Source of the DNA: Sulfurospirillum halorespirans DSM 13726
Lineage (GTDB): Bacteria; Campylobacterota; Campylobacteria; Campylobacterales; Sulfurospirillaceae
Length of the DNA stretch: 64,000 bases
Assembly: GCF_001723605.1 (NCBI RefSeq)
Contig: NZ_CP017111.1
Location: 2,170,001 to 2,234,000 of the forward strand
Direction of reading: 5' to 3'
Below, piece by piece: positions 42,435 to 45,587 of this stretch (positions are counted from its first letter, which is position 1; each line of letters opens with the position of its first letter). The notes under the pieces are model-generated. The model was not told where the DNA came from. It made no database searches and was given only the letters and a program-made list of their open reading frames with translations. Both the position numbers and the translations under genes were made by a program.

Positions 42435-43994
42435 CTAAATGCCCTCTTCATTGCCCATTTTAAGGGTTCGTAAGTTATCTCGCATCGAGATGTAACTGTT
42501 GAGTGCGCCAATGTACGCTTTAGCGGTTGCTAGCATCGTATCGACACTTAAACCATGCCCCATAATTGCAGGTTTGCTCTCATCAAAAACCACTTTTACA
42601 AGCACTCTTGCCATCGCATCTTTGCCTTGCGAAACGGCGTCCACTTTATAATCTTTAAGCTCACCACTGACCCCACACACACGATCAATCACTTTAAAAA
42701 TCGCGTCCATCGTGCCATTGCCAATCGCCGCATCGGTGATCTCTTTGCCATCATGCAAAATAGTCACAGCCGCACTCGGAACGCCTCCAGGTGCACAATC
42801 AGAGAGTTGTAAACGTACCAAGTCAAAGACCTGAGGAATTTTTGTGATCTCCTCAGCCACAAGGGCACGCAAGTCATCATCAAAAATCTCTTTTTTCTGA
42901 TCGGCCAAGATTTTAAAGCGATCAAACGCCTCATTGATCTCTTCATCTTTCAGCTCATACCCAAGCGTGCTCAGTTTATCTTTAAACGCATGTCGACCTG
43001 AATGTTTGCCAAGGACGATTGAGTTTTTATCAAGACCAATATCTTTTGCACTCATAATCTCATACGTTTGAGTATGTTTTAACACGCCATCTTGGTGAAT
43101 GCCGCTCTCATGTGAGAAGGCATTTTTACCGACAATCGCTTTGTTAGGCTGAGGCTCAATACCCGTAATGGAAGAGACCAATTTGCTTGTTGGGTAAATC
43201 TCTTTGATGTTAATGTTCGTCTCATAGCCACTAAAATGATCTTTGCGCGTACGAAGCGCCATCACGATCTCTTCTAACGCCGCATTTCCAGCGCGCTCAC
43301 CCAAGCCGTTGATCGTACACTCCACTTGACGTGCACCATTTTCAATACATGCTAAAGAGTTCGCTACAGCCAGACCTAAGTCGTTATGATTGTGCACCGA
43401 GATGATGGCACGATTCCCTACAAACTCGCTCAACGATTTGATGATAGCGCCCATCTCTGTGGGCAAACGGTATCCTACGGTATCGGGGATATTGAGCGTT
43501 GTCGCACCCGCGTTGATGACCGCATCTAACACCTCTTTAAGAAAGCTTACATCGCTGCGTCCTGCATCTTCACAGCTAAACTCGACATCATCGCAAAAGG
43601 TTCTAGCATACTGAACCGCTTCCACCGCTTTTTTGATCACTTGCTCGGGCGTCATTTTGAGTTTGTATTCCATATGAATTGAACTGGTTGCAATAAAGGT
43701 GTGAATTCGGTTCATCTTTGCTTTCGCCACAGCCTCGCCCGCTGCTTTAATGTCACGATCCAGTGCGCGAGCAAGAGAGCAGATACGGCTCTTGGTTACC
43801 GCCTCACTAATGCGCGCAATCGCATCAAAATCACCAGGACTTGCCGCAGCAAACCCAGCTTCGATGACATCCACCCCCAATTTTTGGAGTTGCAATGCAA
43901 TCTGAATCTTCTCTTCGGTATTCATAGAAGCCCCAGGGCTCTGCTCACCATCACGTAAAGTGGTATCAAAAATGATAATTTTAGGGTTACTCAT
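42435..43994 (-). CDS. leuA: 2-isopropylmalate synthase
   Basis: The 519-residue enzyme has the LeuA/homocitrate synthase signatures: [18 protein letters not shown] (start), [54 protein letters not shown] (metal His), [20 protein letters not shown], then a C-terminal regulatory domain (about 390-510) that binds leucine for feedback inhibition. It condenses acetyl-CoA with 2-oxoisovalerate in the first step of leucine synthesis. AAGGAATAACCC precedes the ATG. A candidate leucine-rich leader peptide lies 50 bases upstream. Confidence 0.95.
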
Positions 43995-44044
43995 GGGTTA
44001 TTCCTTAGTAAATTTGTTTGAAAAATGAGAAAAGTAAAAAAGAG

Positions 44045-44140
44045 TTAGAGGAAGAGGAGGTTTTGCAGGAGAGCGTTTTTAATCTCTATCTTGGGTAAAT
44101 TTTTGATCGATTTCATAATGCCAATATCAACGCTGTTCAT
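44045..44140 (-). CDS. Candidate 31-residue leucine-rich leader peptide of leuA
   Basis: A short frame upstream of leuA has a strong ribosome-binding site (AAAGGAG, about 6 bases before ATG 44140) and 31 codons ending in NALLQNLLFL and TAA. Five of the last eight codons are leucine (CTC, CTG, CTC, CTC, CTC), the mark of attenuation leaders. It ends 50 bases before leuA. I see no clear terminator hairpin between the two, so coupling could work by translation or Rho instead of a classical attenuator. A promoter with TATAAT lies upstream. Confidence 0.65.
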   Translation of the reverse strand: MNSVDIGIMKSIKNLPKIEIKNALLQNLLFL

Positions 44141-44164
44141 CGCTTCTCCTTTAAGTAAGATACG

Positions 44165-44187
44165 TGAGGTAAAGTAACTTTACCTCA
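44165..44187. promoter_or_regulatory. Perfect 23-bp palindrome between the leuA promoter and the leader peptide
   Basis: TGAGGTAAAGT and ACTTTACCTCA are exact inverse repeats around a single central base. The element begins about ten bases after the -10 box on the minus strand, so it lies at the very start of the transcript. It is an operator or an RNA stem; no T run follows, so it is unlikely to be a pssA terminator. Confidence 0.6.
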
Positions 44188-44197
44188 AAGTACGCGT

Positions 44198-44203
44198 ATT
44201 ATA
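44198..44203 (-). promoter_or_regulatory. -10 box (TATAAT) of the leuA leader promoter
   Basis: TATAAT on the minus strand lies directly after the pssA stop codon and about 58 bases before the leader ATG. Confidence 0.55.
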
Positions 44204-44938
44204 CTAATTTTTATGAAATTTGGCAACGACGAAGTTATAAATACCGCGCGTCAGACCATACGCTAAATAGGCGGTAATTAAAAATGTTCCGACTTCAATC
44301 GGATAGAGATAAAGCATTGAAAAAACAAGAATCAAATAGACCAAAATTTTGATCAAATGACCTTTATGCATATCGATCTTTTTAAAGCTTGGGTAGCGAA
44401 TATTGCTCACCATTAAAAAAGAGAGAACACCCAAACCAATAAGCATAATCCACTCAATGCCGTGCATAAAAGTATGTTCGCGGTAGAGCAAAATCCACAT
44501 GGAGACAACAACCGCCGCCGTAGGAATGGGAACACCGATAAAAACAGAAGGCTCAGAGACACCAATCATAATGTTAAAACGAGCCAGTCTAATCGCACCA
44601 AACACCACATACATAGCGCACATCAGTGAGCCTAGTTTGCCATACATATGCCCTACGCTAAAGTAAAACAGCATAGCAGGAGCTACGCCAAAAGCAACAA
44701 TGTCGGCTAAAGAGTCAAACTCAGCACCAAATTTACTTGTCGCATTGGTCATACGAGCGACTCTTCCATCCAACCCATCAAAAATGAGAGAGAGCAAAAT
44801 GTAGACCGCAGCTTTTTCAAATTGTCCATTGGCGGAAGCAATAATACTAATCACGCCTAAAAAAGCACTTGCTGCTGTAAAGAGATTGGGGAAAATATAG
44901 ATCAGTTGGAGTTTATTGCCATTGCTATTTTCTATCAT
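44204..44938 (-). CDS. pssA: CDP-diacylglycerol-serine O-phosphatidyltransferase
   Basis: With ATG 44938 the product has 244 residues, with seven to eight hydrophobic helices. The CDP-alcohol phosphotransferase motif D-G-x2-A-R-x8-G-x3-D-x3-D is seen as DGLDGRVARMTNATSKFGAEFDSLAD. It makes phosphatidylserine from CDP-diacylglycerol and serine in the inner membrane. The ATG has AAGGATACCG upstream and overlaps the psd-like gene by 14 bp; a TTG at 44956 is less likely. The psd-like product would be expected to act next. Confidence 0.94.
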   Translation of the reverse strand: MIENSNGNKLQLIYIFPNLFTAASAFLGVISIIASANGQFEKAAVYILLSLIFDGLDGRVARMTNATSKFGAEFDSLADIVAFGVAPAMLFYFSVGHMYGKLGSLMCAMYVVFGAIRLARFNIMIGVSEPSVFIGVPIPTAAVVVSMWILLYREHTFMHGIEWIMLIGLGVLSFLMVSNIRYPSFKKIDMHKGHLIKILVYLILVFSMLYLYPIEVGTFLITAYLAYGLTRGIYNFVVAKFHKN

Positions 44939-45587
44939 CGGTATCCTTGTACGCAAGATAGCCTAATACGCTTGACCCTGCTTTGACTTCATCACTTAAT
45001 GAAACTTTAATGCGCGTATCAAGAGGCAGTAAAAGTGCCACCTCTCCATCGCGTAAAAAGCCCAATCGTTCACCCGCTTTAAAGGCGCCTATTTTGGAGA
45101 AAAGTGTAATCTTTTGGCTCCATAGACCCGCACTCACAATCATTTTGATCGGGGCAAAAGCACTCTTACATGTAAGCCCTTTGCGCTCAGCCATCAAGGC
45201 AAAAAGAGGCGATGTGGAGGGCATAAACAGTCCAAAACGTTTTTTGATCTCTAAAATTTCCATGCCAAGCGGTGCGCGTAAAACACCCACATCCCAAAAG
45301 GATTTTCGAATGACAAGGCGCAATGCTTCACTGCCATCACTCAAACTTATTTTTGAAATGTCAGTGACCTTACCATCCAATGGCGCAATTAAACAGCGCT
45401 CATCGTCTTCTTCAGCAATACGTTCAGGATTGCGGTAGCTATAAAGGGTTCCTGCAAAAATCAGAAAAAACACCCATGATAAAAACGAGAGTGCGTAAAA
45501 AAGGAGGAAAACCATGAACGCTAAAACGACTTGGTTCCATCCCTCTTTTGCAATAATGTGTGTTGAAGTAAACGACCCGTTACGCAT
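44925..45587 (-). CDS. Phosphatidylserine decarboxylase-related membrane protein
   Basis: The 220-residue protein has two hydrophobic helices (about 20-50) and the short-form decarboxylase layout: FRNPER-like YRNPERIAEEDDERCLIAPLDGKVTDI, then VRAPLGMEILEIKKRFG, and the C-terminal GERLGFLRDGEVALLLPLDTRIKV. In active short enzymes the segment that follows G-x-R-x-G-x-I-R reads FGSRVD, where the Ser becomes the pyruvoyl group; here it reads DGEVAL. A GSS occurs 20 residues later but outside that position. The self-cleavage serine therefore seems lost, so it may be non-catalytic. pssA follows with a 14-bp overlap and ftsH precedes with 8 bp. Campylobacter has a similar 'related' gene in this place. 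Confidence 0.75.
   Translation of the reverse strand: MRNGSFTSTHIIAKEGWNQVVLAFMVFLLFYALSFLSWVFFLIFAGTLYSYRNPERIAEEDDERCLIAPLDGKVTDISKISLSDGSEALRLVIRKSFWDVGVLRAPLGMEILEIKKRFGLFMPSTSPLFALMAERKGLTCKSAFAPIKMIVSAGLWSQKITLFSKIGAFKAGERLGFLRDGEVALLLPLDTRIKVSLSDEVKAGSSVLGYLAYKDTDDRK

Follow-up and report, generated by a model that had tools for sequence, protein, structure and literature searches.

Leader peptides encoded before leuA are already known in Epsilonproteobacteria, and the kind of element described here is not new. In Campylobacter jejuni, dRNA-seq revealed LeuL as a peptide of 28 aa with five rare Leu codons, and the leuL RNA ends shortly 3' of the stop codon; the main text of that study reports LeuL orthologs for the majority of Epsilonproteobacteria that have leucine genes and proposes attenuation for C. 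jejuni leuL, Rho not being named there (Porcelli et al., 2013; PMC3847290). Translation of C. jejuni LeuL was indicated in 2025 by a start-site signal in Ribo-seq/TIS data, and the tBLASTn searches with LeuL, as described in the main text of that report, generally returned Campylobacter only (PMC11955535). An earlier note on the locus analysed here had taken such a leader to be undescribed for Campylobacterota leuA, a view that does not hold given the first of these reports (PMC3847290) and the translation data of the second (PMC11955535). The LPKIEIKN core, the SD:Leu-codon helix, the C-rich spacer and the Rho hypothesis presented below are not mentioned in the main text of either paper.

The locus lies in a 64,000-nt stretch of the Sulfurospirillum halorespirans DSM 13726 genome, the whole of which is called the window. 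The genome is 3.03 Mb in size and its nearest relatives are Sulfurospirillum. The locus shares with Campylobacterota LeuL a small ORF of 20-35 aa before leuA, C-terminal CUA/CUC/CUG Leu codons and the phylum itself, and its ORF, equipped with SD and promoter, stands directly 5' of leuA. The following features were recognized:

44221..44226, minus strand: -35 box TTGCCA (promoter scan, 11/12 together with the -10 box)
44198..44203, minus strand: -10 box TATAAT (promoter scan; same position in Sulfurospirillum relatives)
44166..44186, minus strand: 5' hairpin GAGGTAAAG-TTA-CTTTACCTC, directly 3' of the expected transcript start (sequence)
44141..44150, minus strand: leader SD and helix 5' arm AGGAGA(A)GCG (MFE pairing with 44067-44075; complementarity z -5 in 36 representatives)
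44045..44140, minus strand: leuL, 31-aa leader ORF with the class I core KSIKxLPKIEIKNALL (ORF list; alignment; pN/pS 0.024 in LPKIEIKN)
44067..44075, minus strand: helix 3' arm CGCTCTCCT, holding Leu codons 24-25, CTC CTG (CTN always in 83 sequences; helix tests)
44013..44071, minus strand: C/U-rich, G-poor tract, candidate Rho-loading region (composition, 19 C and 1 G in 59 nt)
44002..44006, minus strand: leuA SD AAGGA (sequence)
42435..43994, minus strand: leuA, 2-isopropylmalate synthase, 519 aa, the putative regulated gene (ORF; leuA lies 3' of class I leaders)

The leuL ORF comprises 31 codons (44140-44045, minus strand), encodes MNSVDIGIMKSIKNLPKIEIKNALLQNLLFL and is preceded by a strong SD, AAAGGAGA, a few nt 5' of the ATG. 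The promoter TTGCCA-17-TATAAT (44226..44198), with 11/12 matches, ranked top of the region in the promoter scan. The span 44045-44203 covers the ORF and the -10 box, and the -35 box (44221-44226) lies just beyond it. ORF, SD and promoter were thus located as in the earlier note, which had described a 31-residue peptide with a strong ribosome-binding site between a TATAAT promoter and leuA. Its five Leu codons in the last eight were also found: the C-terminus LLQNLLFL has five Leu in eight residues, encoded by CTC CTG CTC CTC CTC. From the end of the ORF to the leuA start there are 50 nt. In the ORF list, leuL is followed by leuA and then by a gene on the opposite strand, and the ORF upstream of leuL (44204-44956) is presumably pssA. 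The 9-bp hairpin at 44166-44186 has paired arms with compensating changes in several Sulfurospirillum and is missing in others. The LeuL peptide has no match in Pfam or NCBIfam, and an Rfam scan returned no family above its cut-off; its matches were all at chance level and were rejected, a preQ1-II candidate (22.8 bits against a cut-off of 47) being one of them.

With a probability of about 0.6, we interpret leuL as the leader of a leucine-responsive leuA attenuator that combines an SD:Leu-codon helix, Rho-type termination and a stall tuned by the peptide core. When leucine is plentiful, ribosomes would pass the Leu codons, the helix would close and leader translation would stop; the untranslated C-rich RNA would then be terminated before leuA, most likely by Rho. 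When charged CUN tRNA-Leu is short, a ribosome would stall at the Leu codons, keep the helix open and shield the first part of the C-rich tract, and transcription would continue into leuA. In the class I leaders defined below, the conserved residues would occupy the upper exit tunnel at the Leu pair and may help determine how strong or how specific the stall is.

Orthologs were sought with LeuA as the query in 60 relatives and in 397 genomes of the phylum, and leuA upstream regions were compared for about 115 of them. Most of these regions contain a small, SD-preceded ORF whose C-terminus carries a Leu run, and counterparts of leuL lie 5' of leuA in 34 Campylobacterota genera. The ORF is not a chance one: its peptide recurs at the equivalent position in its own genus and far beyond. 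The earlier note had stated that a lack of conservation of the peptide or its Leu codons in close relatives would speak against it; this conservation instead supports its proposal of a leucine leader peptide before leuA well. LeuL is a genuine leader peptide, its kind is known, and the conserved body and the leader-SD helix set this variant apart. In family f16, leaders were not found in the upstream regions despite the presence of leuA. Seven genomes without a strong LeuA match were searched for a weaker match, and none was found.

Several upstream regions show features of their own. In L026 no leader was found; leuA starts almost immediately after a TATAAT, as might result from a deletion of the leader. 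In L028 and L031, which belong to two genera, similar stretches (CGTGCTT.AGT..CGAGGAATTTTT) occur before leuA and are perhaps a dispersed repeat. In family f9, 7/7 sampled leaders (L047, L106, L112, L113, L116, L118 and L119) are followed by a TATAAT at 31-33 nt from the start of leuA, and f9 leuA seems from this sequence to have a second promoter 3' of the leader. One genus of family f6 (L066, L069-L072, L076, L092 and L094) has in its spacers a stretch resembling GGTAAAATTAGA, located 55-137 nt 5' of leuA, a possible inner promoter or conserved element.

Alignment of the leaders revealed a core, G..K(S/A).K.LPKIEIKN.LL, which defines what we label class I; leuL of the window belongs to it. 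Leaders with a Leu run and no such core are labelled class II. Class I was found in the families f1, f4, f10, f11, f19 and f22, covering Sulfurospirillum and at least five other families, and its records include some named Sulfurospirillum, Nitratiruptor, Hydrogenimonas and Campylobacter. LPKIEIKN was sought in 84,980 species genomes as a single exact pattern, which diverged forms elsewhere would escape, and 53 loci were confirmed. All are named as Campylobacterota or as unplaced Proteobacteria MAGs that share this gene order. leuA follows directly 3' in 49/49 class I loci with a continuing contig, and the remaining four are at a contig edge. The class I leader L029 (leader start near 1351) has an early TAA where its relatives have CAA, leaving two Leu codons after the core.

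Attenuator leader peptides are commonly assumed to be free to vary outside their regulatory codons. Across 83 distinct class I sequences, the LPKIEIKN core has a pN/pS of 0.024 with a pS of 0.84, synonymous sites being near saturation, and its mismatches at codon positions 1, 2 and 3 are 0.04, 0.01 and 0.46. Synonymous usage in the core is free: all four Pro codons occur, all three Ile codons are found at each Ile, and the Leu that precedes Pro is UUA, UUG or CUN. Amino-acid change is thus rare and synonymous change free in the class I body, so that selection acts on amino acids. For leuA itself pN/pS is 0.02-0.09, and for class II leader bodies it is 0.63 in one f6 genus and 0.34 in family f9; the seven f9 leaders have their own, less constrained body motif, KIF.F.NN.FIKSVN, before LLLL. 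The conservation of the class I body would be superfluous for a pure codon-counting attenuator. The conserved residues are those that would lie inside the exit tunnel of the stalled ribosome, as in arrest peptides, and the conserved core suggests a stall modulated by the nascent chain.

The Leu pair after the core is always CTN and never UUR in the 83 class I sequences. Its first Leu is CUC in 69 of the 83, and its second is CUG or CUA in 82. CTC or CTG accounts for 127/204 Leu codons in leaders without the core, versus 44/664 at the beginning of leuA in those genomes. The long tRNA genes of the S. halorespirans genome include one tRNA-Leu gene each with the anticodons UAA, CAA, UAG and GAG, so the Leu pair is presumably read by CUN-specific tRNAs. 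In the 52 ORFs of the window, CTC makes up 16% of Leu codons and CTC plus CTG 26%. CTC is therefore not rare here, which weakens an argument from rare codons and leaves the exclusion of UUR at the conserved pair unaffected. The Leu counts of leaders with and without the core (4.2 vs 5.3) were set aside, because the counted segments are not equivalent.

The run of Leu codons would equally suit a classical codon-counting attenuator, in which the Leu codons alone matter and the stalled ribosome picks between RNA structures that include a terminator missed here. The C. jejuni leuL RNA, reported to end just behind the stop codon (PMC3847290), and T-runs after the stop in several Sulfurospirillum are in line with this reading. 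However, the T-runs are not conserved, the conservation of LPKIEIKN is left unexplained, and no intrinsic terminator was found between leuL and leuA in the window, where the spacer is nearly unstructured (-1.3 kcal/mol), or in 34 of the 36 genus representatives. We regard this explanation as unlikely. The earlier remark that no obvious terminator is present agrees with these results, a hairpin of the terminator type occurring in 2/36 representatives.

Between the Leu codons and the leuA SD, the 36 representatives average 21% C and 7% G (25% and 6% in class I), compared with 14.5% C and 13.5% G in the leader body. A C-over-G excess like that of 44013..44071 occurs in about 0.03% of the 59-nt stretches on that strand of the window. 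This RNA is C-rich, G-poor and unstructured, as in Rho-dependent attenuators. Given that a Rho gene is present in the genome and a terminator is absent, Rho-dependent attenuation appears to be the simplest reading, although a C-rich composition does not prove Rho loading.

In the MFE structure of the leader in the window (-15.6 kcal/mol), AGGAGA(A)GCG pairs with CGCTCTCCT, which takes in the final Asn22 base, Ala23 and the run's first two Leu codons. The SD is purine-rich and CUC-CUG is pyrimidine-rich anyway, and the complementarity was therefore tested for being locus-specific by reassigning SD arms to the Leu arms of other genera among the 36 representatives. Native SD x Leu-arm duplexes had a mean of -10.1 kcal/mol versus -8.7 kcal/mol for permuted ones (z -5.0, 0/20,000 permutations), relatedness being controlled in part in these permutation tests. 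Among 28 region pairs tested, locus-specific complementarity was seen in leader SD x Leu arm only. With one sequence per family the median p was 0.008; within class II the signal was retained (z -4.9), and within class I it was weak (z -1.8, median p 0.04). Counting pairs without gaps beyond the SD core gave a z of 2.5 for the in-register alignment; with the arms shifted, z did not exceed 1.5. Pairing was kept despite sequence changes in L106 (GGAGAGTA/TACTCTTC), L070 (GGAGTGTA/TACACTTC), L102 (AGGATAGAAG/CTTCTATCCT) and L033 (GGAGAGT/ACTCTCC). The helix is not predicted in all genera, being near zero in L038, L044 and L058.

Masking the Leu codons, as a ribosome would, raised the mean openness of the leader SD in the predicted folds from 0.25 to 0.47. 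The effect in the window was modest, from 0.51 to 0.64. Folding of the leader RNA, which the earlier note had named as a check, thus yields the SD:Leu-codon helix in the MFE structure, with the qualification that the SD of the window is already half open in free RNA. The non-classical mechanism it had envisaged is partly borne out, by the absent terminator and by this helix.

CUCCU Leu codons are complementary to any SD, and in a translational attenuator the Leu tract would hide the SD of leuA until a stalled ribosome released it, an arrangement akin to the base stem that has been suggested for the LEU element of actinobacteria. The leuA SD does open on masking of the Leu codons at L040, L078, L087 and L102, but its mean openness changes little (0.36 to 0.45), and no locus-specific complementarity was detected between the Leu arm and the leuA SD (z -0.19, p 0.42), which makes this alternative quite improbable. 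We likewise give little credence to a class I peptide acting in trans as a small protein, with a conservation unrelated to stalling, for which the core, constrained like an enzyme while its synonymous sites vary freely, and the known trans function of the Sinorhizobium (S.) meliloti leader peptide peTrpL (PMC7298713) can be cited, since leuL is single-copy (no paralog of the peptide was found in the same genome) and always directly 5' of leuA, the core is absent from many relatives that retain a Leu-run leader, and the conserved residues immediately precede the Leu pair, as a tunnel effect would predict.

Within the preferred reading of a Rho-type attenuator with an SD:Leu-codon helix, a more specific version is conceivable on the sequence evidence, though we hold it only tentatively and think it somewhat doubtful. 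Class I LeuL could be a hybrid sensor, in which arrest programmed by the core at the CUC-CUR pair is joined to codon attenuation, to a helix that shuts leader translation after unstalled passage, and to Rho. If the interpretation is correct, a leader body constrained like the downstream enzyme suggests that the nascent chain participates, and relatives with and without the core in the same families offer a natural comparison. The leader-SD:Leu-codon helix would be a simple route for the codons of a scarce tRNA to control initiation on their own message, with no terminator hairpin needed.

The leu attenuator of Escherichia coli and Salmonella has Leu codons in its leader, a terminator/antiterminator switch and no conserved peptide body. 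The Leu codons of the leader peptide before leuA are shared with the present locus, whereas here there is no terminator and the pairing partner of the Leu codons is the SD upstream of them, that of the leader itself; of the marks of a classical three-hairpin attenuator, neither an intrinsic terminator nor an Rfam leader family was found. Rho involvement is known for tna. Like class I leaders, TnaC (PMC8429421) and CruR (PMC9426467) have a conserved nascent peptide, which in their case controls downstream transcription, with Rho involvement shown for CruR (PMC9426467). TnaC and CruR sense free tryptophan or copper via the peptide, whereas the class I leader has Leu codons and its arrest is a proposal. 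The actinobacterial LEU element (PMC1262725) also combines a Leu-run leader, the lack of an obvious terminator and pairing of Leu codons with an SD; in that element they pair with the SD of leuA, at a pseudoknot base, whereas at the present locus the partner is the SD of the leader.
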